Below the pieces are notes generated by a model. The model worked only from the letters and a program-made list of their open reading frames with translations, did no database searches and was not told where the DNA came from. From IMG/VR virus record IMGVR_UViG_3300005471_000022, positions 1 to 51,947 of that record: 51,947 nt of DNA; one strand, written 5' to 3'. The stretch's first letter is position 1; each line of letters begins with the position of its first letter. The translations under genes were made by a program, and so were the position numbers. Positions 528-51,947 of the stretch are shown in pieces. This stretch comes from a virus.

Positions 528-535
528 CTATCCGT

Positions 536-862: not shown

Positions 863-923
863 GTCTCCCTCTCATGTTTTCGTCGCTGAGCAAGCGAGCG
901 AGTTTTCGCGCTTCGAACCACAT
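849..923 (-). CDS. 24-residue micro-ORF coupled to the terminase stop
   Basis: The TerL stop and an ATG form a TGATG overlap. The ATG opens a 24-codon frame whose end overlaps the start of the next gene (862) by 14 nt. Overlaps of this sort are the rule in this genome, so it may be translated. It may equally serve only to carry ribosomes to the 536-862 gene. No motif is visible. Confidence 0.3.
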   Translation of the reverse strand: MWFEARKLARLLSDENMRGRHDDA

Positions 924-5598: not shown

Positions 5599-6007
5599 AA
5601 TTCGCCTCCTCCGGCGACCGATCGATGATTGCGCTGATGAGCTTCCACAGCTCCGCGACCATAGCCGGCGTGACGTCGGAAGCCTTCTTTACCATCGCGG
5701 TCGCGCGCCGGATCACCACCTCGGGCTTCGAGAAGTAAGTCGCGAGCTGGTCAGCCTGCGCACGGAAAATGTTCACGCGGTTCATTTCGAGAAAGAACGT
5801 GAACGCGCTCTTCGAACCCAGGTCATGCCAGAGGCGATGGCAGTCGAAGCATTGCGAGCACGCCGAGTAGTCAGAGCCGCGCGCGCCCACGGTATGAAGG
5901 TGACTCGGTTGACTCCGTGGCGCTGCGCCGCACGTGATGCAGCGCTGCTCGCGGAGATACTCGAGGAAGTCCAGATCTTCGAAGCGCGCCGGCTTCGGAA
6001 TGTTCAC
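5585..6007 (-). CDS. HNH-like zinc nuclease-fold protein
   Basis: About 140 residues from a GTG at 6007 that overlaps the previous stop as GTGA. An upstream ATG at 6052 would cause a 49-nt overlap and is less likely. The N-terminus (IPKPARFEDLDFLEYL, EQRCITCG) and core (C-x2-C, SHLHTVGARGSD, C-x2-C-x2-C-H-x3-WH) match the zinc-bound HNH-like proteins that phages carry near recombination or packaging genes. HNH proteins beside terminases can be required for packaging cleavage; the distance of several genes makes that only possible here. Confidence 0.75.
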   Translation of the reverse strand: MNIPKPARFEDLDFLEYLREQRCITCGAAPRSQPSHLHTVGARGSDYSACSQCFDCHRLWHDLGSKSAFTFFLEMNRVNIFRAQADQLATYFSKPEVVIRRATAMVKKASDVTPAMVAELWKLISAIIDRSPEEANSAAT

Positions 6008-9117: not shown

Positions 9118-9407
9118 TTCTCAATTGGAACGTTTCAAAATCCGACCACGATCTGATCGAGAGAATTGTCGAGCGCGCGATCGCCGGCCACAAGTTTCCG
9201 GCGAGCGAAGAGCTGACGCTCATGATGGATTTGACCGCGCTGCAAGCCAACGGTACGCCCCTGCGCCTGCGCGATCTGCTCGATTTCCCCGCGTTCGACT
9301 TCACGCATGACATCTACGGCATCGTCCGCCACATTGACCGCAACACCGGCCAGCTCGGCGGATGCTTCGTGCCGCGCTGCGCGATACAAGAAAGGAAACG
9401 AGCATGA
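9114..9407 (+). CDS. Small early protein, unknown
   Basis: A 97-residue protein with ATGA coupling at both ends. A helical N-terminus (DHDLIERIVERAI, SEELTLMMDLTALQANG) precedes LRLRDLLDFPAFDFTHDIYGI and a small C-terminus. There are no metal or membrane motifs. The family is not recognised. Confidence 0.65.
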   Translation: MILNWNVSKSDHDLIERIVERAIAGHKFPASEELTLMMDLTALQANGTPLRLRDLLDFPAFDFTHDIYGIVRHIDRNTGQLGGCFVPRCAIQERKRA

Positions 9408-9808
9408 ACGACAATGAACGCTCAGCCCTGGGAGACGCATACGATCAGATGTCGCGGAAGCTCACCGATCGGCCCGATACGGTGAAGTCGACGGCGAGCA
9501 TCAAGACAACATCGCCGCTCGGCGTGGTCGAACGATGGACGATTGAAACCTATCGGCACCCGTTGCCGCCGAAAAAGAATCAGAAGCCGGGCGTTGAAGT
9601 GCGCGGCGACACGATCCTGCTGGAGCACGGTTCCGGCGAGCGTTACTTGCGGCTCATCATCCCGCCCGAGGTCACCGAGGCAATCGCGCGCATGCGCGAC
9701 GCCGTGGCGACGAAGAACCGCAAGCGCGGCGCGAAGAAGGCCGTCCAGACGCGCGCCGAGCTGGGCATCGAGCCAGGATTCCTGAAGAAGAAACGAGGCG
9801 GCAAGTGA
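9404..9808 (+). CDS. Hypothetical early protein with basic C-terminus
   Basis: A 134-residue protein whose ATGA start has AAGGAAA upstream. The middle is beta-rich (VVERWTIETYRHPLP, VRGDTILLEHGSGERYLRLIIPPEV). The C-terminus is Lys/Arg-rich (KKNRKRGAKKAV, FLKKKRGGK), consistent with nucleic-acid binding. The family is unknown. Confidence 0.65.
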   Translation: MNDNERSALGDAYDQMSRKLTDRPDTVKSTASIKTTSPLGVVERWTIETYRHPLPPKKNQKPGVEVRGDTILLEHGSGERYLRLIIPPEVTEAIARMRDAVATKNRKRGAKKAVQTRAELGIEPGFLKKKRGGK

Positions 9809-10077
9809 GAGGCGGAAAGACGTTCAACGAATACGCGGCAACGCTCGGCGCGATGTATGCCGATACACCGAAAGCCGTCTTCGCCGCGATTGCAGTCTCG
9901 GCTCTGACGAGCGGCGGCGATCAGCTCAAGCAAGGGAAGTACAGAATCGCGCAGGAGTGGCGGACGCTCCATGACAACGGGATCGTTCCGCAGCCTTTGC
10001 CGCATGCGTTCGAAGAGCTGGCCGATTTCGCCGACGTCGCCGACGGACTCACGAGGGCTAGCGGGGGTGGCAAGTGA
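9805..10077 (+). CDS. Small helical early protein
   Basis: A 90-residue protein with a GTGA start overlapping the previous stop. It is mostly helical (AVFAAIAVSALTSGGDQLKQG, FEELADFADVADGL). There is no recognised motif. Confidence 0.65.
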   Translation: MRGGKTFNEYAATLGAMYADTPKAVFAAIAVSALTSGGDQLKQGKYRIAQEWRTLHDNGIVPQPLPHAFEELADFADVADGLTRASGGGK

Positions 10078-22756: not shown

Positions 22757-23995
22757 TTGAACGGGACCTTTCGATTGATCTGCGCCGACGTCACGGACGG
22801 CCTCCGCTGTCTGCCCGACGTGTCAGTCGACGCGATAGTTACCGACCCGCCCTATGAACTCGGATTCATGGGGAAGAAGTGGGACGCGAGCGGAATCGCC
22901 GCAAGCGTCGAACTTTGGCGCGAGGCGTTGCGCGTGCTCAAACCAGGCGCGCATCTCCTCGCGTTCGGCGGGACGCGTACGTATCACCGGATGACGTGCG
23001 CCATCGAGGACGCCGGCTTCGAGATTCGCGATTGCATTCAGTGGATTTACGGGAGCGGATTTCCGAAGTCGCTCGACGTTTCGAAGGCGATCGACAAGGC
23101 AGCGGGAGCTACGCGGACCGAGGTCGTCGGCACGAAGCTCGGCCGCCCAGGCATGGCGAAGGATGGCGCGAATCAGTCGTTCGACTCGAGCGTCAACACG
23201 TACGGCCGCGGCGGAGTCCTTAGCTCCGATATCACGGCGCCGGCGACGGATGAAGCCCGGCAGTGGAACGGCTGGGGAACCGCGCTGAAGCCGGCGTGCG
23301 AGCCGATCGTCGTCGCGCGTAAACCGCTGATCGGAACGGTCGCGGAGAACGTGCTCGAGCACGGAACCGGCGCGCTGAATATCGACGCGTGCAGGATTGA
23401 GGGGACGAAGCCGATCGTCCGACCGATCGACAGCGACAGCCGCTGGCCGGCGAACGTGGCCCTCGACGAAGAAGCCGCTGCGATGCTCGACGAGCAGAGC
23501 GGAGAGTTGACCAGTGGAAACAATCCAGCGGTGCGCCACACTCCGAAGACCGGAGACATCTACGGCCTCGGGTTCGGCGATCAATGCGGCGTCCGTCGAG
23601 CCACAGACTCCGGCGGGGCATCGCGCTTCTTTTACACGGCGAAAGCGGACCGCACCGAACGGAACGACGGCCTCGAGGAGTTCGACGCGAGGACGACCGA
23701 CGACGGCCGCGAGACCTCCATCGACAACCCCTTCCTCCGCGGCGAGACGAAGCGCCGCAATCATCATCCGACCGTAAAGCCGATCGCGCTGATGCGCTGG
23801 CTCGTTCGGCTCATCACTCCGCCTAACGGCGTCGTTCTCGATCCGTTCGTCGGCTCCGGCTCGACCGGCTGCGCGGCCATCGGCGAGGGCTTCAATTTCA
23901 TCGGCATCGACCGCGAAGTCGAATACATCGAAATCGCGCGGGCGCGGATCAGGAACATCGCGCCGCTGTTCGCGCGAGAGGAGGCGAGCGCGTGA
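22757..23995 (+). CDS. DNA methyltransferase (N6-adenine or N4-cytosine)
   Basis: A 412-residue protein from a TTG at 22757. DPPYE at 30-34 is the catalytic motif IV. DPFVGSGSTG at about 362-371 is the SAM-binding motif I, so this is a beta-class (permuted) enzyme. LKPGAHLLAFGG and a large insert between the halves carry the likely target recognition region. No restriction enzyme is next to it, so it should be an orphan methylase that protects the phage or sets epigenetic marks. It differs from the ParB-fused methylase at 4291-5598. Confidence 0.92.
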   Translation: MNGTFRLICADVTDGLRCLPDVSVDAIVTDPPYELGFMGKKWDASGIAASVELWREALRVLKPGAHLLAFGGTRTYHRMTCAIEDAGFEIRDCIQWIYGSGFPKSLDVSKAIDKAAGATRTEVVGTKLGRPGMAKDGANQSFDSSVNTYGRGGVLSSDITAPATDEARQWNGWGTALKPACEPIVVARKPLIGTVAENVLEHGTGALNIDACRIEGTKPIVRPIDSDSRWPANVALDEEAAAMLDEQSGELTSGNNPAVRHTPKTGDIYGLGFGDQCGVRRATDSGGASRFFYTAKADRTERNDGLEEFDARTTDDGRETSIDNPFLRGETKRRNHHPTVKPIALMRWLVRLITPPNGVVLDPFVGSGSTGCAAIGEGFNFIGIDREVEYIEIARARIRNIAPLFAREEASA

Positions 23996-25659: not shown

Positions 25660-25902
25660 ATGAAAGTGATCGAAGCGCAGTGGGAGAAGTTCCGGCAATG
25701 GGTAATACCGGTGAATGCGTCCGCGACTCAGTTGATCGAAATGCGCCGCGCGTTTTATGCCGGCGCCGAAGCCGTTCTCGATGGGACCGCCGGCTTGATG
25801 TCCGAATCGGAGACGGCGACCGAGAAGGACATCGAAGTCTGCCGCAGCATCGTCGCGGAGCTTAAAGAGTTCGCGCGGCGTGTTGCCGAAGGAGTCGCGT
25901 GA
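25660..25902 (+). CDS. Small helical phage protein
   Basis: An 80-residue protein with GTGAGG before its ATG. It matches a common small phage type (WEKFRQWVIPVNASATQLIEMRRAFYAGAEA split: WEKFRQWVIP and EMRRAFYAGAEAVL), all-helical, found near replication genes. The function is unknown. Confidence 0.7.
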   Translation: MKVIEAQWEKFRQWVIPVNASATQLIEMRRAFYAGAEAVLDGTAGLMSESETATEKDIEVCRSIVAELKEFARRVAEGVA

Positions 25903-26120
25903 TGTGCCAATGCGGACAGCCCGACAATCGACCCGATCTGATCGCGCACGGCCAGGAGGCCTGCACGTACAAAAATGCTGCGGTCCCGCCGGCGCCATCG
26001 CGCAATGCGGACAACTGCCAGTGCCAGTGCGGATGTCCGGACGAGGCGGAAGTGGACTCGCCATATTGCGAGGCGTGCCAGCACGGCAACCACGTGCCGG
26101 TCGTGGAGGCGAAGAGATGA
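25902..26120 (+). CDS. Small Cys-rich protein
   Basis: A 72-residue protein starting at a TGATG overlap, or one codon earlier at GTG 25899. It has Cys in CQCGQP, CTY, NCQCQCGCP and YCEACQHG, and probably binds one or two zinc ions. The function is unknown. Confidence 0.6.
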   Translation: MCQCGQPDNRPDLIAHGQEACTYKNAAVPPAPSRNADNCQCQCGCPDEAEVDSPYCEACQHGNHVPVVEAKR

Positions 26121-26872
26121 GCGACCGTCCATCCATCGAAGAAGTACGCCACGAGGCGCAGATCGAAAAGGAGCATGGGGAGACGTTGCAAGTAGTCGCC
26201 GCGAACATCGTCGGCGCGGTCATGAAAGACAATTCACGATGGTCGCCGTCAGGAACGTATGTGCAATTCACCACGGCGGAAGTCAGCGTGATCGAGCGTG
26301 CGCTGAATCGTCCTGCACAGCCGGAGGGTGAATCGCGATGCGCCGATTGCGAAGTGATCGACGGTCTCGATGAATGGCTGACCGACATCGTCGCGGAGGG
26401 ACGCGGCCCTATTGTTCTGGCGATGACCGAGAATGCGAATGTCGGCGTGATCCTTCGCGACCGCAACGACGAGAATCAGAAGTGCGACGGTAGCGGCGAC
26501 ACGGTTATCGACGCGCTGCTGCGAGCCATGGAATCGCCATCCTCTATGTTCACACCCAACCAGCAGAAAGGTGGTGATGCCCATGAAAAGACAAGCGCCG
26601 GATTACCGTCCGCGGAATCCACAGGAAGTGTAAGTGGCGGGACTGCACATCCCGCTGCTCGATCCGAGGAATTGCAAGACGTGGCGAGGGAGATTGTGAT
26701 GACGCGCGAGTTGCAAAATGGCGTGTACGGCTATTCGTTCGCATGTCCGTACTGCCGCGAGGAAATGATTCTGCACCATGAAGGCGGCGGCAAATCGCAG
26801 CATCGCCGCGTGAACGTTTATCACCGATGGACGGCGAGCGCCGACTGCCGAGCATCGAAGGAGGACGAATGA
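26117..26872 (+). CDS. Hypothetical protein, possibly two or more genes in one frame
   Basis: A 251-residue ORF with an ATGA start. Residues 1-150 look like one domain (VVAANIVGAVMKDN, YVQFTTAEVSVIERAL, DCEVIDGLDEW, VGVILRDRND). The stretch 155-193 is Ser/Gly/Thr-rich like a shadow frame; in other frames it holds a small ORF with AAAGGTGGTG before its ATG (26577-26633). The last 57 codons have their own ATG (26699) with GGGAG, and encode CPYCREEMILHH, a zinc-type domain. The true gene division is uncertain. Confidence 0.5.
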   Translation: MSDRPSIEEVRHEAQIEKEHGETLQVVAANIVGAVMKDNSRWSPSGTYVQFTTAEVSVIERALNRPAQPEGESRCADCEVIDGLDEWLTDIVAEGRGPIVLAMTENANVGVILRDRNDENQKCDGSGDTVIDALLRAMESPSSMFTPNQQKGGDAHEKTSAGLPSAESTGSVSGGTAHPAARSEELQDVAREIVMTRELQNGVYGYSFACPYCREEMILHHEGGGKSQHRRVNVYHRWTASADCRASKEDE

Positions 26873-30145: not shown

Positions 30146-31396
30146 ATGGCAGGGACCAGCGATCCGGACTACGTCTCAGGTCAGCGCGGGCGCTACGACA
30201 TTCACCCGCCGATCGTTCACCCGCCGCACTGCGTCTGCACAATCTGTCCGCGGCATCGGAAGGACGCCGACTCGTGGAACTCTCCGCTGATCATCCGGCT
30301 CCGCCGGCGGTCGATCTATCCGAGGGACCGGCTGAGATCCGCGGTCTACGCGGCGCAGGTGAAGCGCGAAGAAGAGGAGAGACTCCGGCTCGCGGTGATG
30401 GAGGCGGAGGAGCGGCGCTCAGCGATTGCCAACGCGGTGCGGTTCGGGAAGGTGTGCGATGCGTACCGCGATTATCTGCGCTCGACCGGCAAGCGGTATG
30501 ACCGGGCATCCTCGAGGATCGACGCGATCGAGGCGCTGTTAGGCCGGGAGCGTGACGCCGCTGCGGTCGGATGGCGGGAGTATCAGGAGGTGCTTTCGGA
30601 GGTTGCGCTGCTCGCGCCGCAAACGAGACGACACTACGGCGCGACGCTTCTCGCGATGCTCAACTTCGCAACGAAGCATCGCGTTCTGCCGGGTGCTCAC
30701 GGTCTCGGCAAGGTGCCGCTGCCATCGGTCCGGAAAACAGATCGGCCGGTGACTTGGACGAAGAAGGAGTTGGCCGTCATCCTCGGCCCGGCCATGGCGC
30801 GGTTCGAGCGCGAGCAGGCACTACGAAAAAAGTCCGTGATCCCACTCCGCGGGCTGTGCTTCGTGGCCTACTTTACGCTCATGCGCCCGAAGAACAATTT
30901 TGCCTTCGCATGGGAGGAGATCGATTCCGAGCGCGGAACGTTCGCGCTCGACCAGCATAAGAACGTGAACCGCGGAATCCGTGCCGAGGGACCGCTCGCC
31001 GCGCAGCTCGCGAAGTATCTCGAGTCAGTTCGACCGGCGAATGCGTCGGGCTTCGTGCATGCGAATCCGGAGACCGGCTCGCCGTACGTTGACATCCGGA
31101 AGCCGTGGTCCTTGCTCATCGAAATCGCGAACGAGATCCTGGGCTACGACCTCACCGGACGGAAGGCCGACTTCTTCACGTTCCGCCACACCGGTGCGTC
31201 GCACCTGGCGGAGAAGACGAACAACCCGATCCTCATCGTGAAGATGATGGGCGACACGAACGTCCAGACGGTGATGCGGCACTACTTCAACCTGGACCTA
31301 GCGTTCATGGCGGAGATGGTTGCCGGCTGGGATGTGCCGACGATGGAGGAGGGCGATGGGAGGCGGGAGTCCGGTAGCGAGGAGCTGCCGAACTGA
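30146..31396 (+). CDS. int: Tyrosine recombinase (phage integrase)
   Basis: A 416-residue protein. Residues 28-38 hold CVCTICPRH, then a helical arm/core-binding part (about 100-190). The catalytic domain has ARM-like LMRPKNN (R about 247), FTFRHTGASHL (R about 347, H about 348), MMGDTN (about 368-373) and the HYFN Tyr near residue 380. Two family positions are altered: the first His of H-x-x-R is Phe, and the later His of LGH is Asp. Integration targets the tRNA-Asp 3' end next to it. Confidence 0.85.
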   Translation: MAGTSDPDYVSGQRGRYDIHPPIVHPPHCVCTICPRHRKDADSWNSPLIIRLRRRSIYPRDRLRSAVYAAQVKREEEERLRLAVMEAEERRSAIANAVRFGKVCDAYRDYLRSTGKRYDRASSRIDAIEALLGRERDAAAVGWREYQEVLSEVALLAPQTRRHYGATLLAMLNFATKHRVLPGAHGLGKVPLPSVRKTDRPVTWTKKELAVILGPAMARFEREQALRKKSVIPLRGLCFVAYFTLMRPKNNFAFAWEEIDSERGTFALDQHKNVNRGIRAEGPLAAQLAKYLESVRPANASGFVHANPETGSPYVDIRKPWSLLIEIANEILGYDLTGRKADFFTFRHTGASHLAEKTNNPILIVKMMGDTNVQTVMRHYFNLDLAFMAEMVAGWDVPTMEEGDGRRESGSEELPN

Positions 31397-31480
31397 TTAT
31401 TGTGAGGCGGATGCGAGAGACGATGCGAGTCAGGAAGTTATCCGGAGAATCCCCAAACCGCGTAAGTATTTGGAACTACG

Positions 31481-31530
31481 TGGCGGGGCCGACGGGGCTC
31501 GAACCCGCGACCTCCGGCGTGACAGGCCGG
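31481..31530 (-). other. attP core: 3' half of tRNA-Asp (GUC)
   Basis: On the minus strand the anticodon stem-loop CCGGC-CTGTCAC-GCCGG (anticodon GUC, 31521-31523) is followed by a good T-arm (GCGGG TTCGAGC CCCGT), acceptor strand CGGCCCC, discriminator G and CCA. The 5' half (acceptor, D-arm) is absent, so this is not a complete tRNA gene. A tRNA 3' end beside an integrase gene is the classic att site: integration restores the host tRNA. It is flanked by phage genes on both sides, which indicates attP. Confidence 0.85.
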
Positions 31531-31579
31531 CGCAGAATCGCTCCCGCTCTCACGAGATTCCGTTCTAAGCCGCTTTCAG

Positions 31580-31619
31580 TGTCCACGGTAAATCGCGGCC
31601 TAAACCCGCACCGTGGACA
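31580..31619. repeat. Inverted repeat beside att site
   Basis: TGTCCACGGT (31580-31589) and ACCGTGGACA (31610-31619) are a perfect 10-bp inverted repeat with a 20-bp spacer that itself holds GCGG/CCGC. It is about 50 bp from the tRNA-derived core. It could be an integrase or excisionase arm site, or a hairpin ending the int transcript; no T-run follows. Confidence 0.5.
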
Positions 31620-31635
31620 TCCGATGCGAGTGAAA

Positions 31636-31670
31636 TTGCGAGTAACAATTCGGCGGGGGGGGGGTATCAA
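31636..31670 (+). promoter_or_regulatory. Possible promoter with a 10-G tract
   Basis: TTGCGA (31636-31641) could be a -35 and TATCAA (31665-31670) a -10, but they are 23 nt apart and separated by a run of ten G (31655-31664). Direct repeats of CAATTCG flank the G-run. The tract could vary in length by slippage, changing promoter spacing for the secreted protein gene at 31708. It may equally be non-functional or an assembly artefact. Confidence 0.3.
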
Positions 31671-31707
31671 TTCGCCGCTCCCGGTCACTACTACACAAGG
31701 GGGAAAC

Positions 31708-32268
31708 ATGAAAACTTTCCAGGGGGAAGTTGTATCCACAGGCCGCAGGATTTTCGCCGTGTTGGCCGCTGTCGCGATTTCTTTCTCGGTGGCGGCCCAG
31801 ACCTCGCCGCCGACGAAGGCCGTCAACGGGCGCGCCCAGGCGGCGCGACCCGCGTCCGTCGCGCAATCGTCGGTCCCGGTGTATTGGCGCCGCACGGCGC
31901 CGGACGGCGCCGCGACAATATTTCTAGTGCGGGCACCCTCGGCGACGTGCGCGCCCGATCCGAAGACGCAGCCCGACCAGTTCGCGTATTTCCACTCCAG
32001 CTCGCGCTTCTCTTCCGATCCTGAAGCGCTGCCGCCGACCTCGATCATTCAGTACCAATGGGAACTCCTCGCGAACTGTCGAAGGGTTACCGTCGATGGC
32101 TCCCCGACTCCGCGCACCGTATGCAGCGGCCCGGTGATCCTCGCCGGTCCGATCGGTACGGTGAACGCTACAACGACGCCGAAGTGGAACGTGCCCTCGT
32201 GGGGCGTGCCGAAATGCGCGATCATCTCAAATTCGGCCGTGCACTTGACGCTCACGCGGGTTCAGTGA
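31708..32268 (+). CDS. Secreted cargo protein next to att site
   Basis: A 186-residue protein with AGGGGGAAAC before its ATG. The N-terminus (MKTFQGEVVSTGRRIFAV, then LAAVAISFSVAAQ) is a signal peptide cut near residue 32. The mature part has TSPPTKAVNGRAQ, a strand-rich centre and four to five Cys (ATCAPD, NCRRVTV, TVCSGP, PKCAII), suggesting disulphides. Its place between attP and the convergent late genes is typical of lysogenic-conversion genes. The function is unknown. Confidence 0.65.
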   Translation: MKTFQGEVVSTGRRIFAVLAAVAISFSVAAQTSPPTKAVNGRAQAARPASVAQSSVPVYWRRTAPDGAATIFLVRAPSATCAPDPKTQPDQFAYFHSSSRFSSDPEALPPTSIIQYQWELLANCRRVTVDGSPTPRTVCSGPVILAGPIGTVNATTTPKWNVPSWGVPKCAIISNSAVHLTLTRVQ

Positions 32269-33426: not shown

Positions 33427-35589
33427 TCAATGAACGGCTCGCCGGCGTCCGCTCGCCCCGACCTCGACGCGCTGACGAATCTGCGCCTGCTGGCCGTTCA
33501 CGCCGACGACCAGTACGACGTCATAGGAGCCTGGCGACTTGAACTCGTGGACGGCGACCTGACCGACATCCTCTCCGCCATCGTTGAAGAACCAGCGGAA
33601 CGTGTGCGCTGCGCACGAGAAGTCGTAATTGAATCCTCGCGCGGCAAAGGTGACCGCCTCACGCTGCGCGCACTTCGTGGTGGAGTATTCGCTGCAACCT
33701 GACGGCGCGTGGAAGTCGATAAAGACGTTCTTCCCTGGCTGGATCGGTGGGCATCCCGCCGGCGGCGGAGGAGGCGGGGGCGGCGGCGGAGGCGGAGGCG
33801 GAGGTGGCGGCGGGCACGTAATGATGCCAGTCGCTGGGTCGCATGAGCATCCGATCGGAACGCTCTCGCACTTCTGCGGCGGAGGTCCGCCACCATCGAC
33901 GATCTCGTACACGTCACCGAGCGTCCACGTCGTGGCGATCAGGTACGTGTGTCCGTCTCTCCGAATGACGGTGCTGTCGAAGAAGTTCGTCGTGTTCGGA
34001 TGCGTGTAGTTCGGCCCCGCGTCGATCGAGTAGTAGCGCCGGAAGTAGTCCTGAAAATCGACCTCGGATGCCGGCAGGCCGTCCATCATCGCGAAGAGTC
34101 GGATCGTCTGCTGCACAGCGAGGATCAGATAGCCGTCGCCGTACTTCATCGCGGCGCCGCCGCGCGTGGAGGTCTGGAAGTCGGCAACACGCGCGAAGGT
34201 GTTGCCGGCTGGTACGTAAGTGGAGATCACGAATCCGGTTGCATTGTCATGGCCGACGAAGAAGCGCATTCCGTCCGATGCGATTGCCTTGTACAGCCCA
34301 TCCGTGGAGAACTGCGCGAGCGGAGGCGCGCCGGCGATGAAGGCATCGTTGCTATAAATTTCTAGCTCGCCCTCGTTCGTCAGGATCGCGATGTGATTCG
34401 CGCTCTTCGCCCAATTCGCCATCGAGCGAGGGAGGTCTGCGCGTCGGAAGGCGTGAGGCGGATCGGTCACGTCCCACACGTTCACAGCCGTCGCGCCGTT
34501 GGAGATCAGCGCATAGTAATGACCGTCGCTCGTTCTTAGCGATGCCATCGCCGACGGAAAGAACTCCCCCTCCTGGTAATCGTCGGGAGCGCGGTGAAAG
34601 AGCGGCGAGGCGTTCGCGTCGAGAATGCCCCATCCGAAGTTCGCGTTCGGATCATAGATGTATCCGCGATCGTCGAAGTCGAGCCAGAAGAGGCGCTCCT
34701 GCCCGTCATCACGCGAAGGACCCCACCCGCCCCACTCGGCATAGAACATACGATCTGCCGGGAGGAAGACGTCGGGATAGCAGCGTGGCGGCGCGCACTG
34801 ATTGCGGGAAACCGGCGCGGTGAGCTGCTCGCGAGCCACGAGACGCTGAAAGAACGTTCCGGCCTCGTATACCGTCGCCGCGCTGCCGGTGATCATATAG
34901 ATCCGGCCGTGCAGCGGATCGGAGTAGACATGGAAGGCGCGCGCGGTTCGGAACGGCTGCTGAAAGTCCTCTGTCGCCTGTGAGTCGAGGAACCGACCGA
35001 CGAAGCGCAGATTCGGCGGCATTGCGGGCGTGAGCTTGCCCTGATGCGATTCGATGCAGCCTACGCATGGCACGTCGACCGATGATGGATACGGCCAGTA
35101 GCCGGTCGGCAGGCTGTTCGCGATGACTTCGGCATGAAGTGCCGCGATCCGTGCACCGAGTGGGTCTGCCCGCTGCTTTCGCGGCGTGATCTCTTCCTTC
35201 GAGTAGTCGCCAACCAGAGCGGTCGGCGGACAGCTCAGACCCATCGTCTGGCATCGCCACTCTGCGATCCGATTCTCCAACCGCTTCCGAAACTGTCGTT
35301 GGCGCCGCCTACCTGCCGCCGTGAGAGGTTTCCATGTGTCGCCTGTGCCGTTCTCGTGAATGACGCGGCGGAAGCCGCGCCGATGTTCGAACCTATCGAC
35401 CTCCTGTTTCGTGGCGTAGCCGCACCACTCGCAGTAGCCGCCAGCTTGGTCGGGCGGGAAGACGCGGAGACATTCGGCGGCCGTCATCTCGACGCGCGGA
35501 CAGCTCGGGAGTCCATCCATCGTCGTCGAGACGCACGGCGCATCTGAAAAAGAAAAGGCCGCCACGAGGGCGGCCAGAATTGGGAACAT
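33427..35589 (-). CDS. Large secreted propeller-like protein with polyproline and PKD domain
   Basis: A 720-residue protein with GGAGG 4 nt before its ATG. Residues 1-20 are a signal peptide. The middle (about 200-560) shows repeated YALISNGATAVNVWDVTDPP, NHIAILTNEGELEIYS and YLILAVQQTIRLF strands, as in beta-propellers. Then comes CSCDPATGIITCPP, about 18 consecutive Pro, and a C-terminal PKD-like domain (FRWFFNDGGEDVGQVAVHEFKSPGSYDVVLVV split: FRWFFNDGGED, HEFKSPGSYDVVLVV). No phage structural motif is seen. It looks like a host extracellular protein carried in a late operon. Confidence 0.75.
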   Translation of the reverse strand: MFPILAALVAAFSFSDAPCVSTTMDGLPSCPRVEMTAAECLRVFPPDQAGGYCEWCGYATKQEVDRFEHRRGFRRVIHENGTGDTWKPLTAAGRRRQRQFRKRLENRIAEWRCQTMGLSCPPTALVGDYSKEEITPRKQRADPLGARIAALHAEVIANSLPTGYWPYPSSVDVPCVGCIESHQGKLTPAMPPNLRFVGRFLDSQATEDFQQPFRTARAFHVYSDPLHGRIYMITGSAATVYEAGTFFQRLVAREQLTAPVSRNQCAPPRCYPDVFLPADRMFYAEWGGWGPSRDDGQERLFWLDFDDRGYIYDPNANFGWGILDANASPLFHRAPDDYQEGEFFPSAMASLRTSDGHYYALISNGATAVNVWDVTDPPHAFRRADLPRSMANWAKSANHIAILTNEGELEIYSNDAFIAGAPPLAQFSTDGLYKAIASDGMRFFVGHDNATGFVISTYVPAGNTFARVADFQTSTRGGAAMKYGDGYLILAVQQTIRLFAMMDGLPASEVDFQDYFRRYYSIDAGPNYTHPNTTNFFDSTVIRRDGHTYLIATTWTLGDVYEIVDGGGPPPQKCESVPIGCSCDPATGIITCPPPPPPPPPPPPPPPPPPAGCPPIQPGKNVFIDFHAPSGCSEYSTTKCAQREAVTFAARGFNYDFSCAAHTFRWFFNDGGEDVGQVAVHEFKSPGSYDVVLVVGVNGQQAQIRQRVEVGASGRRRAVH

Positions 35590-38377: not shown

Positions 38378-41300
38378 TCAGTGTTCGTTGTAGGTCACAT
38401 ACGTGAAGCGGTTGCCCTCGGTGACTATGACCGCCGGCGTGTTGGCGCCATTCTTTTTAAAGAAGTCCATTTCGATCTTCGCGATCTCCACGACAGGGAC
38501 GATCGTGCTCGGCGCCCCTGGCTCGCGGCGCAAGCCCACCCATCGGACGATGTAGCACTGATCCTTGTATTGATCCGGCGTGAAGAGAGTGGCTCCCTGT
38601 CCGATCCGATGCGTGCTGCCGGCTTCGTTTGAGAGCGGAACCGGAAGAACATGCGTCGCGCCATCGCAAGGAATCCGGAACATTGGCCCGACGAAGCCGC
38701 CGCTATATCCGCCCTTTCCGTTCTGCTCGCCGACGTTGCTGAAAAGATTCATCCAGTTGTTGCCGGCGTCTTGAGTGCCCTCAGCGCGCCATGTGACAAA
38801 GGAGAGGTCCACGAAATAGGGCGATCCATCCGCTCGCGTCGCGAGCGGAACCGCAATGCTGATCCAGATCGTGGTTCTGAAATAGATTGAGTTTGCATCC
38901 GTATCTGCGACCAGGCCCTTGCCGTGATACCACGCGTCGGTTGCGGGATCGGGCGTCAGGTGGTTCGCGCCGTCGTACGTCAGATCGTTGACGTTGTCCT
39001 TTAGCGCGAGCGCACTTTTCTTCGATTGACTACGCGCCCAGGGTCCCGAGTCGATGTAGCGATCGTCAAGACCGCCGGTGATGACAAAGTAATTGAGCAG
39101 TCCCCACATCGCCCATGGGTGGCCGCGATCAATGTCGTGGGAGAAGTCCGTCACCTCGAGCCATTCGCGGACCGGATAGTTCGCCGGCGCTGCGACAATA
39201 AAGTTCGTTCCCTTCTTCGAAACCGTGATCGCGAATTTGTTGACGGCCGCTGGGCTGAGGATGGGAGGCTTGACCCGCTCGGCATTGCCGGAAGTCTGCT
39301 CCTTGTCATCCGAATATCCATAAGAGGTCGTATCGTTCGGCTCGTGACATCGGAACCAGACGACGCCGTTGGTCGGCCCAAGCTCGCCACGCTGCCCCTC
39401 GCGATATCCCGGCGACATCAATGGATCGTTCTGTCGGCTGAAAAAGATTCCGTTGCTGCCGAAGAACACGCGCGATCCGTCGAGCGCAACCTGGGAGACT
39501 GGCGCCGTCATTTGCATTCCGCCGTCGCCGGTCTTTTTGAACTGGTCGCGCGCTTTCAGCGCGCGGCTCACGTCGGCGTCGAGGGCAGCTCCATAACCCG
39601 CAATGCCGAGTGAGATCGCATCGAGCTTTACGACCGCGCCGACGTTGGCGTTGCCGATGAGGAGGCGGAATTTCGCGATCGACGAACCGACAAAAGTAAA
39701 ATTGTTCTGGAAGCTGAGCCAGCCAGTGTGGAAGTTGCCGTCGTCGACCCATCGATCGATCGACTTCGTGACCACGACCCCCATCCCGTTGTCGAAGGAG
39801 GCCTGAATGTTGAGCACTCCCTGGCCGGCGGGGATCTGAAGGCGGAAGCTGAGAATGATGCCGATGCTTCCGGAATAGGTCCGGAGCAGATCGAGATATG
39901 TGCTCCCCCACTCAAAGAGCCGCCACTCGAGATATGCGTTCGAGCCGCCACCGTTCGTTATCGAGACGACGCCGCTGCCGCTTGGATCGACGGACGAAGC
40001 CGAGATACCTGCGCCCACAGACATGCCGGTCGGCAGCGATGCGGCCCGCACGAAGTTCTCGATGTACGGCCACGTCAGGTTGGAATCGACGGTGGGAATA
40101 TCGGGATGCGGAGCGACCGGATCGAGCAGGACGGACCCGTTCGAGGAAATGAGCGCGCTCTGGATGCCGTCCGTGTAGATCGCGCGAACGGCCGCCTTGA
40201 TAGTGACCGGAACAGTTCCATCGCTGAATGAGTCGGCGGGGAAGCCGACGGACCGCCGCGCCGGATCGGACACCATCGTTTCGAATAATGGAGTGCCGAT
40301 GCCGAGGCCGGTGTCATAGACGATGACCTGGAAACCTGTAAGCGACAGCGGCGGATTGTTGACGTTGTCGGCGTGCGTCCACGTCACCGTGAGCGCATAG
40401 AGTGCGATGACCTGCGCAGTTGCTCCGCCGAATGCGCCGTCTCCGCCGCCAGAGGCTTTGCTTACTGCGCGCCGGCGAAGCGGGACGGCGATGGGATCGT
40501 TGACGACCGGATTTACCGGCGTGATGGAGTAGATCGAGGAGCTGTATTCGGCCGAGAACGAATAGTCGAGGCGCCGGTCGCTGATCGCATCGGCGACCGC
40601 AAAGCGGAAGTACCACGGCAGCGCGTTCGTGGTCTTGAAGATGAAGTCGCCGCCGCCAGGCGGAACGACCTGACCGACGAGCGTCGATGGCGATGGTGTG
40701 AAGCCCTGCGTCTGCGAGGCCCACATGTAAATGCCGCGCGCATCCTGATCGGTCGCGGCTCCGACCGGGAGCTTGATCATCTCCTTCGAACGAATGAAAT
40801 TCGAGGGAGTGATCGGCGGCGGACTCGGAACCGCCTTCGTAGCGGCGGCGTTCGCTGAGGCCGAGGAGTAATTCGCAAAAGCATCGAAGGCGCGGATATA
40901 GAGCGTCTTCGTGCGGAAGTTCGGCGCGTTGATCTTGAATTCTGTGGCGCGCGCTTTCAGGAGCGGCGGGAATGAATCGTTGCCCCAATTGGCATCGACG
41001 TCGCGGACCTCGTACTGATACTCGCGGCCGAGGTCGGCCCACGTCCACACGGCCGAGTCGCCAGAAAACGCGCCCGCGAATCCGGTGACCGGCGCGGCCG
41101 GCGTGTTGTACCACGGCACGAAGATGCTGGTTGTCGCGGCGCCAGCGAAGTTGTATCGACCGCCCACTCCGTAGGGCGTGACGCGGAAGTAGAGCGTCAC
41201 TCCGTGCGGGGCGTTACGCCAGCGGAAATCGTTCGAGTCCGAGGAGGGGAGCTGCGACCAGGGACCGCTCGCGTTGAACGCATACTCGATCCGCGCGCCT

Positions 41301-44230
41301 TTGTAGAAGCCATATTTTTTCTGCGGCTTCGGTCGCGCCCATTGCAGAATCACATCGGTCTGCTTTGACCTATCGTTCTGCGTGACGATTTCATATGTCG
41401 CTGTCAGGTCGGTGATCGGCGCCGGCGGCTGCGAGAAATCCGGGAGGTCCGAGTAGTTCGTGATCGTGATCGGTCCATCGGTCACGAAGATCGAGGCGTC
41501 GTATTCGACCAATGAAATCTCGCGCTGCATGTTCGCATCGCGTGTGATTTCTAGAATCCGGAACGGCTTGACTTTCGTGGCGACGGGACCGTAGGCCCAC
41601 ACGTCGCCTTCCTGCGGAACCCTAGTAAATGGGACGGTAACAGTGACGCCGAAATAGCTCGAGCCATCGGAGGGCGCGGCCACGTCGGCCACGACGCGCT
41701 CCTCGATCAGCTCGTGCCCGCCCGCATCGCCCGCGGCGTAGCGGATGATCACGCCGTACTGAGTGACGCCATCGAACGGAATCAGCCGATCGAACATCAC
41801 CATCGATTGAATGATGTTCGCTGGCGCATTGTCGTTCGGCTCTACGCGACCGCTGTATCCCCACTGCGTGAGATCATGCGAAACGTTGATGACGTCGAAG
41901 GTCTCGGCCATCATCGAATCGGTCGCGGCGCCCAGGCTCCCGATCGTGCGGATCGCATAATGCTGTTTGAGTCGGTAGCGGCCTTCCCGAACGACCTCAG
42001 TGAGTCTCGTCGTTCCGATGAGCTGCAGCGACCGACGACGTACGACCTCGCCAGCGGCCTGCAGGTCGCTCTCATCACAGAACGTACCGTCACGTCTGAT
42101 GCAGACGGTGACCGTGTCGGTGTCGAAATTCGCGGCGCGATTCTCGAACGTGACGTCGTAGGTATTGATCTGCCCGCGCTCGCTGCGATAGCTCAGCTTG
42201 AACGAGTCCTCGAGGGTGTTCCCCATCCCGAAGAGCTGCGTGGGCGTCGTCGGCCCGTCGAAGCCGGCGGAAATCTTCGTCCCGCTCCAATACGCAGCGC
42301 CGCGCGCGCTCCCGAGAAGCTGCTGGATCAGATCAATCGCGTTCTGCTGCTGATTGATATAAAGGTCGAGTTGTGAACGCACCTCGGTGTACGGAGAGCC
42401 GACCTTCGGCGTGACCGTTTCAAGCTCGTCGCATTTTTCCGCGTACGTCTTCCAGGCGTTCAGGTTGATGTCGGAGTCGGGGAGTTCTTCGCCACAACCG
42501 AGTTCGTGATTCCGAAGAATCCAGAGCGTCAGCCAGCCGCGATTTCGGCCCGCGGGCGTTGCGGACCCGACGCCCCAATCCGGCGCGAGGAATTGTGTGC
42601 CGTCCCATTTTTGCGGAATCGCGCCGCGCCACATGGCCGTGACGGTAGGCATCGCGCCGTTGAGTTGCTCGGTCGCGATGCCCTCGATGGCGAGGATCGT
42701 CTTACCGTCATAGCTGACCGACTGCTGCGTCTCCTCGGTGACTCCGGAGAGGATGACGTGCCACTGGTCAAATGCGACATCCTTGAACTGCGCGTCGAGC
42801 CAGGTGATGCGGATGTCGTACTTCGCGCGCGGGAGCTTCTCGACACGGCGCGTCTCAGGCTTCAGTGCGTGGGTGTGGTCCTTGAGTTCCCGGTATCCTG
42901 GAGTCGAGCCGTCGACGTTCGTCCAGGGATCGCCGGTCCCATTGCGCCGATACTCGAGCCTGTAGCGCGTCCAATTGTCCTGTGCGCCGCTGTTGGTGTT
43001 GTGCGAAAGGCCGGCGATGTTGAGCAGCGCTTCGAACGCGTCGACCTGATTGCTGATCGTCGTGTAGGTGTAGGAAACGTTCGCGCCGAGCGCGGTCACG
43101 TCGACGTTGACGTCGTAGGTGTTCGCGACAACGTCGAAGCCGGGAATGACGCTCTGCGGCGTCGCGCCGTTGCGCCAGGAGACCTTGACGCCTGGGAAAT
43201 TCGAATAGTGCTGGTTGTTGATCCGGACGTCCGGCGGGTTGGTGACGACGTCGGCTGGCAAGTTCGGATCGATCGTTCCGACGGGTCCCCACGTCTGATG
43301 GCCCGCCATCCGTATCAATAGATATAGCTTCTCGTTCGGCGTGTAGGCCGCCTGATCGACTGGCGCTGTCGGGCCGTCCTGTGTCGGCGTCTCCGGCGCC
43401 GGCGGCGGGTCGGGTACGTCGCGATTTGGCGGGATGTAGAACCCGCGGCGCCGGAAGGCCGAGATGCGGCCGCCCGCTACGAGCCGTTCGCCGAGGAGGA
43501 TCTCCTCCGGCACGCCGGCGCGATCATCATTCGTGATTCCATTCCAAATGAAGCTGCTCGGTCCGTCGGTGCCGCGATTGATAACAGGCGATGGCGTAAG
43601 GAGCGCACCGACCGTCGAGCCGATGGCGTAACCTTCCAGCGCCCCTTTGACTGCGCCCATCGGGCCGCCGATGTAGAAGCCGGCAACCGCGCCGATGATG
43701 CCGCCGACGACGCCGAGGATGACGGACGCGTTCTTTCCGTCGACGGTCGGGATGACACTGATGACCTGACCGGCGCGCGGGATGACCGCGTCGAAAACCG
43801 GCATCTCAATCGCCGGAGCCTCGCGTCGGAGAATCTTTCGACCGATGCGCGCGATCCGCGTCTCCGGAAGCAGGACTCGGACGATGTCCGCGCGACGGAA
43901 GATTCGGCCATCCGAAATGACGTGGAGGATTTGCTCATGCCCGAGACCGAGTTCGCTGAGGTAGCCAGAGAGGGTCCGGCCGCGCGAATACGGGACATCA
44001 TGCTCGGTCCAGTCGACGCGCCCGTCATCATCCGGTAGCCCCGGCACGCGGATCGTGACGACGCCGCGCTTTCCCGGCTCGGCGTCCCTCCAGCCCTCGT
44101 CCGCCGGCGGAGCGGCTTCGCGCGCCTTCTCCTGCAGCTCGCGCAGCCAGTCATCAGGTGATGGAAATTTCTCCCGCTTCGGCCGACACTTCAAGCCGAA
44201 GGCCGCGCAAAACAGGTGAGCCGGAATCAT
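38378..44230 (-). CDS. gpJ-like tail tip/host specificity protein
   Basis: A 1950-residue protein starting in an ATGA overlap with the NlpC gene. The N-terminus has a ubiquitin-like segment and a glycine-zipper helix (about 170-207, VGGIIGAVAGFYIGG and GALEGYAIGSTVG). VINRG, GEILLGERLVAGGRI-type and DVNVDVTALGANVSY motifs follow, like the gpJ core, then several FN3-type repeats (PITDLTATYEIV, PAPVTGFAGAF) and a C-terminal receptor part. It forms the tail spike/tip that recognises the host. No catalytic motif is seen. Confidence 0.85.
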   Translation of the reverse strand: MIPAHLFCAAFGLKCRPKREKFPSPDDWLRELQEKAREAAPPADEGWRDAEPGKRGVVTIRVPGLPDDDGRVDWTEHDVPYSRGRTLSGYLSELGLGHEQILHVISDGRIFRRADIVRVLLPETRIARIGRKILRREAPAIEMPVFDAVIPRAGQVISVIPTVDGKNASVILGVVGGIIGAVAGFYIGGPMGAVKGALEGYAIGSTVGALLTPSPVINRGTDGPSSFIWNGITNDDRAGVPEEILLGERLVAGGRISAFRRRGFYIPPNRDVPDPPPAPETPTQDGPTAPVDQAAYTPNEKLYLLIRMAGHQTWGPVGTIDPNLPADVVTNPPDVRINNQHYSNFPGVKVSWRNGATPQSVIPGFDVVANTYDVNVDVTALGANVSYTYTTISNQVDAFEALLNIAGLSHNTNSGAQDNWTRYRLEYRRNGTGDPWTNVDGSTPGYRELKDHTHALKPETRRVEKLPRAKYDIRITWLDAQFKDVAFDQWHVILSGVTEETQQSVSYDGKTILAIEGIATEQLNGAMPTVTAMWRGAIPQKWDGTQFLAPDWGVGSATPAGRNRGWLTLWILRNHELGCGEELPDSDINLNAWKTYAEKCDELETVTPKVGSPYTEVRSQLDLYINQQQNAIDLIQQLLGSARGAAYWSGTKISAGFDGPTTPTQLFGMGNTLEDSFKLSYRSERGQINTYDVTFENRAANFDTDTVTVCIRRDGTFCDESDLQAAGEVVRRRSLQLIGTTRLTEVVREGRYRLKQHYAIRTIGSLGAATDSMMAETFDVINVSHDLTQWGYSGRVEPNDNAPANIIQSMVMFDRLIPFDGVTQYGVIIRYAAGDAGGHELIEERVVADVAAPSDGSSYFGVTVTVPFTRVPQEGDVWAYGPVATKVKPFRILEITRDANMQREISLVEYDASIFVTDGPITITNYSDLPDFSQPPAPITDLTATYEIVTQNDRSKQTDVILQWARPKPQKKYGFYKGARIEYAFNASGPWSQLPSSDSNDFRWRNAPHGVTLYFRVTPYGVGGRYNFAGAATTSIFVPWYNTPAAPVTGFAGAFSGDSAVWTWADLGREYQYEVRDVDANWGNDSFPPLLKARATEFKINAPNFRTKTLYIRAFDAFANYSSASANAAATKAVPSPPPITPSNFIRSKEMIKLPVGAATDQDARGIYMWASQTQGFTPSPSTLVGQVVPPGGGDFIFKTTNALPWYFRFAVADAISDRRLDYSFSAEYSSSIYSITPVNPVVNDPIAVPLRRRAVSKASGGGDGAFGGATAQVIALYALTVTWTHADNVNNPPLSLTGFQVIVYDTGLGIGTPLFETMVSDPARRSVGFPADSFSDGTVPVTIKAAVRAIYTDGIQSALISSNGSVLLDPVAPHPDIPTVDSNLTWPYIENFVRAASLPTGMSVGAGISASSVDPSGSGVVSITNGGGSNAYLEWRLFEWGSTYLDLLRTYSGSIGIILSFRLQIPAGQGVLNIQASFDNGMGVVVTKSIDRWVDDGNFHTGWLSFQNNFTFVGSSIAKFRLLIGNANVGAVVKLDAISLGIAGYGAALDADVSRALKARDQFKKTGDGGMQMTAPVSQVALDGSRVFFGSNGIFFSRQNDPLMSPGYREGQRGELGPTNGVVWFRCHEPNDTTSYGYSDDKEQTSGNAERVKPPILSPAAVNKFAITVSKKGTNFIVAAPANYPVREWLEVTDFSHDIDRGHPWAMWGLLNYFVITGGLDDRYIDSGPWARSQSKKSALALKDNVNDLTYDGANHLTPDPATDAWYHGKGLVADTDANSIYFRTTIWISIAVPLATRADGSPYFVDLSFVTWRAEGTQDAGNNWMNLFSNVGEQNGKGGYSGGFVGPMFRIPCDGATHVLPVPLSNEAGSTHRIGQGATLFTPDQYKDQCYIVRWVGLRREPGAPSTIVPVVEIAKIEMDFFKKNGANTPAVIVTEGNRFTYVTYNEH

Positions 44231-45786: not shown

Positions 45787-47877
45787 TTAAACGACCGAGC
45801 GGAGCGTCCGCCGGATCGGCCCGTTGGTGAGAAGGTCAGCGTTGATCATCACGGCCAGCTCTCCCTGGGTCGGCAGCATCGCCGGCCGCATGCCGGCGAA
45901 GAAGTCGCTCGCGAGCGTCACAGTCAGATGCTGCGTGAGTTCGGTCGATCGACCGCCTCCGCCGACGGACGGAGCCGAGGGCGCGGCCATCCTGCCGCCG
46001 ATCACTGAGAGCGAGCCGGCCATGAGGCCGACACTCGGCGCCGCCAACGCGCCTGTTCCTCCGTACGAGGGCGTCGTCGTAACCGTGCCGCCCGCCGCCG
46101 CCGTGCCGTATCCGCTGAGAAATTTCTCGATGAACATTTGGACAAGGCGCTGCGCCATCAGATGCGTGATCGTTCTGAGAATGTCCTCGGCGAGCGATCG
46201 AATGGCGGATTTGATGCCCTCGATGTGGCCGGTGAAAGCGTTGAAGAAAGCGTCGCCTAGTTGCGTCTCGAACGCGCTCTGTATCTGGTCGATAGAGGAG
46301 ATGACCGATTCGCCCCAAGTCTTCTGTTTGAGGATGAGCTGATCGATGATCGAGGCATAGTCGGAGCCAAACTTACGCCGCAGCTCGATGAGCTTCGCAT
46401 TCTTTACCTGCTCGTTATCGACCTCGAGCTGGTCGAACTTCATCGAGATGTCGAACCACGCGCGCGCTAGTTCTTCATCCGTCTGTGCCGTCGAGGCCGC
46501 GGCTTGAATCTCCGCGATGCGCCGGTTGTGAAGCTGCAGCTTCCGGACTTCGAACGTATCCTCGATCGCCTGACGCTCGGAGTCCTCCGCGCGGAGCGTG
46601 ATCTTCAGAATCTCGCCGCGCATCGAGGCTTCTTCGTTCGCGAAGTGCTCGGCGAGAGAGCGGCGCTGCTGTTCAGCCGCCTGGAGCGCCGTCGTGAGGC
46701 GCAACTGCTCGCGGAGTGACGCTGCTTCGCGCGCGCGACCGGGATCGATCCGCTGCCTGATCATCTCGGCCGTGGCCATGCGCTCGTGCGAATGCGCCAG
46801 TTCCGCGGCGAGCGGCCCTGCATGCTGCGCGAGCGCGATCTGCTCCCGAAGTTGCGCGTTCTGAATGTCCAGCATCCGATTTGCCTGCTGGATCGCCTCG
46901 ATGATCGGATTCAGCGGCTTCTTGTCGCCGGCGCCATCTCCGCCACCCATGCCCTGGAGCTGCTGGTCGACGCCTTTGATCTGATCGATGGTCGCGCGAG
47001 TGAGTTTCTCTAGCTCCTTCGAGCCGTCCTTGTAGTCCTCGATCGACCGCTTCAGCCGTCCGCTGAAGAGGCCCATGAGAGAGGCGTTCGCGAGGACAAT
47101 CGTGCCGAGAATCGCGCGGTCGATGGTGTAGGCAGCGATCTCGGCGCCGATGGCCACGGCTTTGAGAACCGAGAGAAGCGGCGGAGCAACTTGCCCGACG
47201 ACCGTATCCTTGAGGCGGGTCATCGAGGTCCGGAAGTGCTCCATGTCCTCGGCGGTCTTCGTCGAGATCGTGGCGCCCATCCGATCGGCCTCATCGCCGA
47301 ACTGCTTTATCGCAGCCGATCCCTTGTTCAGCGTCGGGATGAGATGCACGCCAGTGCGGGAGCCGAAAAGATCAGAGGCAACGGTCACCTTCCCGGCGCC
47401 GTCGGCCGTGTGCGCGAACGCATCGGCGACGCGCATCAAGATCTCGTATGGCGATTTCGTTTTCAGATCGGCGAGCGAGATGCCCACGGACTGGAATGTG
47501 GCCTGCGCCTGGCCGCCGTGTTGAATCGCCTCGGTGATCCGCTGGTTGAATGTCCGGATGCCGGTCGAGAACTCCTCGACGCCTCGACCGCTGACGTACT
47601 GCAGGCGAGAGAGCTGCTCAACGGTGAAGCCGGTCTCCTGAGCGAGTTCGCTCATGTTGGCCGCCGTCTCGATGGCGGCCTTTCCCAGCTCGATGACGGT
47701 CGCGGCGAGGCTTGCGCCGATGACCAGACTCTGAAGCTCGCTACCCAGCTCGTGCGCGAATGCCTTCGCGCTCTTCGAAAAAGTCTCGACCTCGCGGCGT
47801 GCTTCGCCGAGACCCTTCTTCAGCTCGCCCTTGTCGAAGATGACGCGGACGATCGCTTTAGCGAGTTCAAATGCCAT
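45787..47877 (-). CDS. Tape measure protein
   Basis: A 696-residue protein. The N-terminus (ELAKAIVRVIFDKGELKKGL, EARREVETFSKSAKAF) and long helices are typical, followed by VIGASLAATVIELGKAAIETAANMSEL split here, QETGFTVEQLSRLQYVS and LTRATIDQIKGVDQQ-type segments. There is a hydrophobic stretch around 220-265 and a glycine-rich C-terminus. Length scales with tail length: about 700 residues suggest a tail near 100 nm, an estimate from the known proportionality. It follows the tail chaperones directly. Confidence 0.9.
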   Translation of the reverse strand: MAFELAKAIVRVIFDKGELKKGLGEARREVETFSKSAKAFAHELGSELQSLVIGASLAATVIELGKAAIETAANMSELAQETGFTVEQLSRLQYVSGRGVEEFSTGIRTFNQRITEAIQHGGQAQATFQSVGISLADLKTKSPYEILMRVADAFAHTADGAGKVTVASDLFGSRTGVHLIPTLNKGSAAIKQFGDEADRMGATISTKTAEDMEHFRTSMTRLKDTVVGQVAPPLLSVLKAVAIGAEIAAYTIDRAILGTIVLANASLMGLFSGRLKRSIEDYKDGSKELEKLTRATIDQIKGVDQQLQGMGGGDGAGDKKPLNPIIEAIQQANRMLDIQNAQLREQIALAQHAGPLAAELAHSHERMATAEMIRQRIDPGRAREAASLREQLRLTTALQAAEQQRRSLAEHFANEEASMRGEILKITLRAEDSERQAIEDTFEVRKLQLHNRRIAEIQAAASTAQTDEELARAWFDISMKFDQLEVDNEQVKNAKLIELRRKFGSDYASIIDQLILKQKTWGESVISSIDQIQSAFETQLGDAFFNAFTGHIEGIKSAIRSLAEDILRTITHLMAQRLVQMFIEKFLSGYGTAAAGGTVTTTPSYGGTGALAAPSVGLMAGSLSVIGGRMAAPSAPSVGGGGRSTELTQHLTVTLASDFFAGMRPAMLPTQGELAVMINADLLTNGPIRRTLRSVV

Positions 47878-50634: not shown

Positions 50635-51052
50635 CGGTCGCCTCCTCCTTCATCGCTTTCTCGGCCTCGTTCGCGAGTCGGTCGAGCGCCGGTCGCCACG
50701 CTGGGCGCGGCTTGATCCTCGATGTGCCGAACTCCAACCATTCCGCGATCTCAGCGCGCCCCGATTCCTTCGATGGTCCGAGGTCGAGCGCCCATTCATC
50801 CTCGCTCAGCTTGTAGATTTGCTTCCCAGGGCTATGCATCAGGAAGCCGGTATCGTTTGCGGGCGGCTCGCCGGGGGCCGACGCGCGATGCGTCACGCTC
50901 CGGCGCCTGTAGAGGAGCCCATGTTTCGCTGCGCGAATCAGCTCGACGAAGATCCGCTCATATTTTCGGAAGAGAGCGACCAGCTTCCCGCGGATGATGT
51001 TGTCGACTTCCTTCTGAAACTCATCGCCATTCCACTGGACGTCTTCACTCAT
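50621..51052 (-). CDS. HK97 gp10-like neck protein
   Basis: A 143-residue protein. RRSVTHRASAPGEPPANDTG and AEWLEFGTSRIKPRPAWRPAL are typical of the HK97 gp10 family. It is a tail completion protein at the head-tail joint, placed in standard order between head closure and DUF3168 genes. Confidence 0.85.
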   Translation of the reverse strand: MSEDVQWNGDEFQKEVDNIIRGKLVALFRKYERIFVELIRAAKHGLLYRRRSVTHRASAPGEPPANDTGFLMHSPGKQIYKLSEDEWALDLGPSKESGRAEIAEWLEFGTSRIKPRPAWRPALDRLANEAEKAMKEEATGASR

Positions 51053-51378
51053 GGCGTTACGAGCTGCGAGAGATCGACCTCCAGGTGGTGACCGCTGTAC
51101 TGATTCGCCACGAACGTGACGAGGTAGCGGATGCCGGTCGTGATGACGAGCACGCGATCACCGACGCGGACGTCCACGCCAGCGTTGAAGAACGCGAGGT
51201 AATTCGATTGCTGCTCGCGTCCAGCCTCGCGCTGCCGGAAGCTCCCGCTTCGTGGTTGAACCGATGCGGGAATGTTTGACGCGACGGCCGGCCACGAGGT
51301 CTGTGATACCTCGCCGGAGGCGGATTTCGACGTGGTGGCCCGTTCGATGGTCACGCGGTCGCGGAGAAGCGAAATCAT
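51049..51378 (-). CDS. Head closure protein (head-tail adaptor)
   Basis: A 109-residue protein. LLRDRVTIERATTSKSASGE, SWPAVASNIPASVQPRSG and VRVGDRVLVITTGIRYLVTFV fit the SPP1 gp16/HK97 gp9-type adaptors: small beta-barrels that plug the connector. It has ATGA coupling with its neighbours. Confidence 0.85.
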   Translation of the reverse strand: MISLLRDRVTIERATTSKSASGEVSQTSWPAVASNIPASVQPRSGSFRQREAGREQQSNYLAFFNAGVDVRVGDRVLVITTGIRYLVTFVANQYSGHHLEVDLSQLVTP

Positions 51379-51947
51379 TTCTTGTAGCGGCGGAGGACCG
51401 CCTTCGCGACCGGATCAACGCCGGCGTCGAACGCGGTGTAGGAATAAGCTCCGATGCTCTCGCTTTTTAGGCCGCTCGAATCGCGCGTGGTGTAGCGCCG
51501 GATGGCCTCGCGGATCAGCTCCTCGCGGATATCCTCCGGGACCTTTATGTCGTGGCCTGATGTCCCGTCGTCGAATTGATAGTAGCCGGCGTCGAACGTC
51601 ACATATGACGTGCGATTGCCTTCAGGAAACCAGCCGATGAGGTAGTGCAGCCGGTCGTCGTCCTCCTCGACAATTGGGTTGAACCAGAATTGCGTGAGGT
51701 CGGCGATGGCGCTTGAGGGATCGAGCACGCCGAACGGATCGATGCGGACTTCCGTGATGCCGAAGATCGGCGCCTCGCGAAGCCAGAGCGTGTCGTTGCC
51801 CCAGCCGCGGACGTAGATCGAGCGCGACTTCCGTTCGAACGTGCGACCGCAATAGTCCTTTGCCCACCTGTCGACCGCGCCGACGATGCGCGTGAGCGTC
51901 GCGTCGACGGCGATGCCGAGCGTCGTCGCGACCTCGGTGTCCTTGAT
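51375..51947 (-). CDS. Head-tail connector (gp6-like), N-terminus at window edge
   Basis: The minus frame is open from the right edge to the stop at 51375, giving 190 residues. The first visible residues are IKDTEVATTLGI, AVDATLTRIVGAVDRWAKDY, CGRTFE, then a beta part (WLREAPIFGITEVRID, DAGYYQF) and a helical end (PEDIREELIREAIRRY, AVLRRYKK). This is the gp6/DUF3199-like connector pattern. Only a few N-terminal residues should be missing. It binds the portal. Confidence 0.85.
   Translation of the reverse strand: MKDTEVATTLGIAVDATLTRIVGAVDRWAKDYCGRTFERKSRSIYVRGWGNDTLWLREAPIFGITEVRIDPFGVLDPSSAIADLTQFWFNPIVEEDDDRLHYLIGWFPEGNRTSYVTFDAGYYQFDDGTSGHDIKVPEDIREELIREAIRRYTTRDSSGLKSESIGAYSYTAFDAGVDPVAKAVLRRYKK

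Follow-up and report, generated by a model that had tools for sequence, protein, structure and literature searches.

The minus-strand open reading frame at 33427-35589 of the window, by which we mean the whole 51,947-base IMG/VR record analysed here, codes for a protein, named T720 in the following, that we tentatively regard as an exported accessory protein with a binding function, encoded by a temperate siphophage. The protein would be made late, exported by the Sec system, disulfide-bonded, released at lysis and active as an adhesin or cross-linker, with its expression gated by a terminator; our confidence in this combination of properties stays somewhat below the halfway mark. An earlier note, drawn up from the sequence, had likewise proposed an exported, non-virion, adhesin-like protein encoded in a late operon, and the place of the gene after that of the tail tip protein, the high cysteine content, the hydrophobic N-terminus and the exported neighbours agree with the proposal. 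Exported proteins are predicted on both sides of T720 (a 192-aa protein and a 107-aa lipoprotein), which supports its export, and gated late cargo of lambdoid phages provides a precedent (PMC8065619). Weighing against this reading, no homologue of T720 was found in the collections searched, a basic n-region is lacking, genes located after J can encode virion adhesins, and PKD domains occur on virions, too.

The 720-residue frame had been delimited exactly (Table 1); it is uninterrupted and preceded by a strong ribosome-binding site. Since GC content is highest at the third codon position in 16 of the 17 windows placed along the gene, the exception being the polyproline stretch, there is no sign of a frameshift. 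T720 contains 19 cysteines (2.6%), as compared to 0.5% for J, 0% for the tape measure protein and 0.4% for a tail-region protein with an Ig domain, which suits export and an oxidising compartment. The proposed signal peptide, MFPILAALVAAFSFSDA, is plausible but atypical: it has a hydrophobic core (11-residue mean hydropathy up to 2.6) and contains no basic residue, hence none in the n-region. Judged from these features, T720 is probably exported.

Table 1. Location of T720, its segments and other features in the window
Feature	Residues of T720	Position	Strand	Remarks
T720		33427..35589	-	720 codons; ATG, GGAGG just upstream
Hydrophobic export-type signal, N-terminal	1-15			
N-terminal region, Cys-rich, basic	16-185			
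Probable beta-propeller	about 186-572			
Cys-rich linker including 18 Pro	573-635			
18-proline rod	593-610	33760..33813	-	
PKD domain	about 638-707	33469..33678	-	PF18911 (PKD_4), 38.4 bits
Terminator-like hairpin		35557..35575	-	GGCCGCC-CTCGT-GGCGGCC then TTTTCTTTTT; hairpin and T tract lie within T720 codons 5-15
Second strong terminator-like hairpin		36760-36742	-	about 27 nt past stop of 88-aa ORF, upstream of 192-aa gene
Hydrolase (alpha/beta), 213 aa		32273..32914	-	nucleophile motif AHSNGC
Lipoprotein, 107 aa		32911..33234	-	lipobox LISAC by eye
Membrane protein, 64 aa		33231..33425	-	holin-like by size; PHROG matches weak only
Hydrophobic/amphipathic protein, 93 aa		35601..35882	-	just upstream of T720; possibly holin-like by eye; no family match
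Exported protein, 192 aa		36106..36684	-	signal peptide MKSRLLLVLILSFSFSTICLSQQ clear by eye; no family
Putative endolysin, 177 aa		37037..37570	-	resembles peptidase M15 by eye only; unsupported by Pfam or PDB
TM and coiled-coil protein, 111 aa		37574..37909	-	spanin-like PHROG matches, weak
Tail tip/host specificity protein J		38378-44230	-	phrog_31, E 3e-83; upstream of T720, same late segment
Tape measure protein		45787-47877	-	late segment
Terminase		923-2488	-	
DNA methyltransferase		4291-5325	-	ParB-like families matched too
DNA methyltransferase		22757-23995	+	
Integrase		30146-31396	+	

Two elements of the C-terminal part, the run of 18 consecutive prolines and the PKD domain, had been recognised correctly. 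The proline codons are a mixture of CCG, CCT, CCC and CCA, so the run is not a simple DNA repeat. The PKD domain is genuine, as Pfam PKD_4 scored 34.4-38.5 bits against a curated cut-off of 27, with E values of 2e-8 for the whole of T720 and 1.2e-9 for the C-terminal piece. The best, albeit weak, PDB matches of T720 covered residues 661-696 and corresponded to collagenase PKD domains.

For the central region (residues ~180-575), a beta-propeller fold is fairly probable from the sequence. A motif search found five to seven repeats with a score that beat 40 of 40 shuffles; ungapped repeats of 16-20 residues, e.g. at 349, 390, 424 and 539, are spaced by roughly 30-45 residues, with DG-hydrophobic at the strand start. 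Pfam searches with residues 180-575, extended up to E 5, returned just two families, both of them beta-propellers. The propeller-like repeats of the earlier note are thus made probable by the motif search and by these propeller-only matches, but not by gapped self-alignment, which was not significant (41 vs. 36 +/- 6 for 20 shuffles), and both families remained under the cut-off (E 0.005-0.01 and 0.1-0.2; best HMM score 16.4 bits, cut-off 27). The single weak match in G002, a Verrucomicrobiota MAG, lies inside a WD40 protein (E 0.06). Two AlphaFold2 models, calculated without homologues, had pLDDT values of 40 and 37.

By the look of its genes, the phage is a temperate siphophage. The late segment on the minus strand proceeds from neck and tail genes via the tape measure gene to J, and T720 is located downstream of J in a compact part of this segment, tightly packed with the adjoining genes, in line with the late operon postulated before. 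The record has no end repeats and is most likely a phage fragment rather than a complete genome; portal and capsid genes were not recognised within the window and may lie off the record ends. Terminase is located at the left end (1-2488) and a head-tail adaptor at the right end (51049-51947), on the same strand, an arrangement that looks permuted and from which the intervening portal and capsid genes are apparently missing. The best listed terminase matches among sequenced phages show 25-28% identity, and for J the value is about 23%; relationships as distant as these do not point to a host. Phage kin, integrase relatives and a tRNA-like attachment site yielded no host assignment, and searches of IMG/VR with J gave either no matches or short glycine-rich ones only. 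Two plus-strand ORFs, 25880-26872 (z -7.5) and 31402-32268 (z -5.4), deviate far from the rest of the window in codon usage and are either acquired genes or not real genes.

That T720 shares its late segment with J would also fit an adhesin or receptor-binding accessory that is attached to the tail tip or the head and uses its PKD domain and propeller to bind host or environmental glycans, in the manner of T4 Hoc. Phage particles commonly display Ig-like domains, PKD among them, T4 Hoc having two PKD domains (PMC13370021), and the statement that the architecture is not typical of virion parts was therefore too strong. Nevertheless, we regard a virion protein as unlikely, if still of appreciable weight: an export-type hydrophobic N-terminus combined with 19 cysteines fits the periplasm rather than cytoplasmic assembly, lysis-like genes separate J from T720, and T720 did not match any of the virion families in PHROGs.

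On the basis of size, topology and weak matches, the neighbours of T720 are putative lysis genes. The gene order is compact, with 11 nt between the stop codon of the 93-aa ORF and the ATG of T720, 1 nt between the T720 stop codon and the start of the 64-aa gene, and ATGA overlaps between the 64-aa and lipoprotein genes as well as between the lipoprotein and hydrolase genes. The hydrolase has no match in PHROGs, and its relatives were found in other phage contigs and in two Verrucomicrobiota MAGs; L002, L003, L004, L008 and L009 are loci of this family. The alignment shows HSNG in all six members and, in the five that are complete, also GH..YF, and the family may comprise lysis esterases of phages that infect little-studied hosts. 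A lipoprotein gene is located upstream of the hydrolase gene in L003, L004 and L009, immediately so in L003 and L004. In L004, the product of 5185-5841, directly before the lipoprotein and hydrolase genes, has a hydrophobic stretch at its N-terminus and contains a PAS domain (Pfam E 2e-7).

From the close packing of these genes and the recurrence of the lipoprotein-hydrolase pair in L003, L004 and L009, T720 might be thought to act in lysis itself, weakening or removing an unusual outer envelope or capsule late in infection jointly with the products of the three genes downstream of it. We consider this unlikely, as T720 is missing from these three loci, and from L002 as well, contains no recognised catalytic motif and is many times larger than spanins. 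In L002, the hydrolase gene is immediately preceded by a gene (9135-9956) for an exported 273-aa protein, which is unrelated to T720, weakly matches DUF5719 and for which no phage homologue was found. The two cases, T720 and L002, suggest that the slot near the hydrolase holds exported accessory proteins.

The first codons of T720 coincide with a hairpin that has the structure of an intrinsic terminator, i.e. seven GC pairs, a loop of 5 nt and the T tract TTTTCTTTTT, and that ranks among the strongest terminator-like hairpins in the window. When residues 1-30 were recoded synonymously 20,000 times according to phage codon usage, a fraction of only 0.0001 scored as high; with about one in 10,000 recodings equalling it, the hairpin exceeds what is expected from peptide and codon usage. 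Its T tract makes use of codons that are rare within their families (TTT 0.15, TCT 0.05, TCA 0.07). Since the folding energy of the 66-nt hairpin region is ordinary in comparison with dinucleotide shuffles (z -0.78), the case for a terminator rests on stem and T tract. For the second hairpin, a fraction of 0.005 of the recodings scored as high. A minus-strand frame from 36778, considered as an overlapping lipoprotein gene, was set aside because its codon positions do not resemble those of a coding frame.

The hairpin lies about 26 nt past the stop codon of the upstream ORF, which is a normal place for a terminator. The supposed signal codons might consequently be nothing else than the terminator of the 93-aa gene, with T720 starting at Met24 or elsewhere and residing in the cytoplasm. 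The second hairpin, too, reads as a signal-like peptide in one frame, and as this frame does not look coding, a plain terminator apparently can mimic a signal peptide. Yet such a misplaced start appears quite unlikely. GGAGG precedes Met1 at good spacing, whereas Met24 is without a ribosome-binding site and the gap of 36 nt from the hairpin to Met24 leaves little if any room for a promoter plus such a site, so that Met1 is the favoured start; besides, the Cys-richness of T720 fits export. If the export signal and a transcriptional gate were indeed one sequence, in a previously unseen class of two-headed exported phage adhesins, the similar hairpin before the neighbouring exported-protein gene would suggest a recurring device; we rate this rather doubtful.

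No homologues of T720 were detected by tblastn in phage and plasmid collections, nor in IMG/VR and GTDB contigs by exact 8-residue matches, which show close relatives only. In 288 genomes from the phylum of G002, matches comprised PKD and polyproline regions plus two short ones, taken as chance since their frames contain stop codons. T720 is thus an orphan in the collections searched. A recently acquired host gene, present as a moron that is expressed autonomously from a promoter of its own, is highly improbable: large proteins of bacterial genomes do have PKD domains and polyproline linkers of this kind, but neither the GTDB contigs, scanned for exact 8-residue matches, nor the 288 genomes yielded a host homologue, and the transferred host gene of the earlier note, in the recent sense, is disfavoured by GC content and codon usage that match the phage's own (codon usage z -1.5), by tight packing with the neighbours and by a promoter search, covering the sigma-70-like type, that found no site before T720. 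Neither an own promoter nor atypical composition, which would mark a moron (an autonomous accessory gene as defined in PMC8065619), was thus found.

As an exported accessory protein, T720 would be produced late from the tail/lysis transcript, pass through the Sec system, acquire its disulfide bonds in the periplasm and be freed at cell lysis. The polyproline rod, roughly 5-6 nm long, would keep the propeller head and the PKD tip apart; both might bind an envelope or extracellular polysaccharide or a protein, which is a guess, and the protein would work as an adhesin or cross-linker outside the host or at its surface. The terminator formed by the signal-peptide codons would hold T720 and the three downstream genes low until overcome in late, antiterminated or well-translated transcription. 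If this is true, phages of little-studied bacteria free large multi-domain binding proteins at lysis, and released proteins of the T720 type could alter the surface or the environment of cells that survive. A terminator overlapping the signal-peptide codons would then amount to a compact way of silencing late exported proteins in the lysogen.

Lambdoid phages co-transcribe cargo with late genes, gate it by antitermination and free it at lysis (PMC8065619). The T720 phage likewise has an integrase, a late, lysis-like setting and a terminator-like hairpin at the front of the gene, but here the hairpin is located inside the coding start instead of upstream, the protein is unrelated, and no antiterminator was identified. 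With phage lysis esterases such as LysB, the neighbouring hydrolase shares the serine hydrolase signature and the vicinity of putative lysis genes, whereas it has no counterpart in PHROGs and is paired with a lipoprotein, its lysis role being putative. WD40-type beta-propellers resemble T720 in repeat spacing, in DG-hydrophobic strand starts and in the weak matches confined to propeller families; T720 differs in having no match above cut-off and no array of WD dipeptides, its fold being suggested by sequence hints. Like other PKD proteins (PF18911/PF00801, the collagenase PKD domains, T4 Hoc), T720 carries PKD at the C-terminus. It differs from them in that no peptidase domain is recognised, in its export-type N-terminus, and in having a single PKD domain, preceded by a probable propeller and a polyproline rod.
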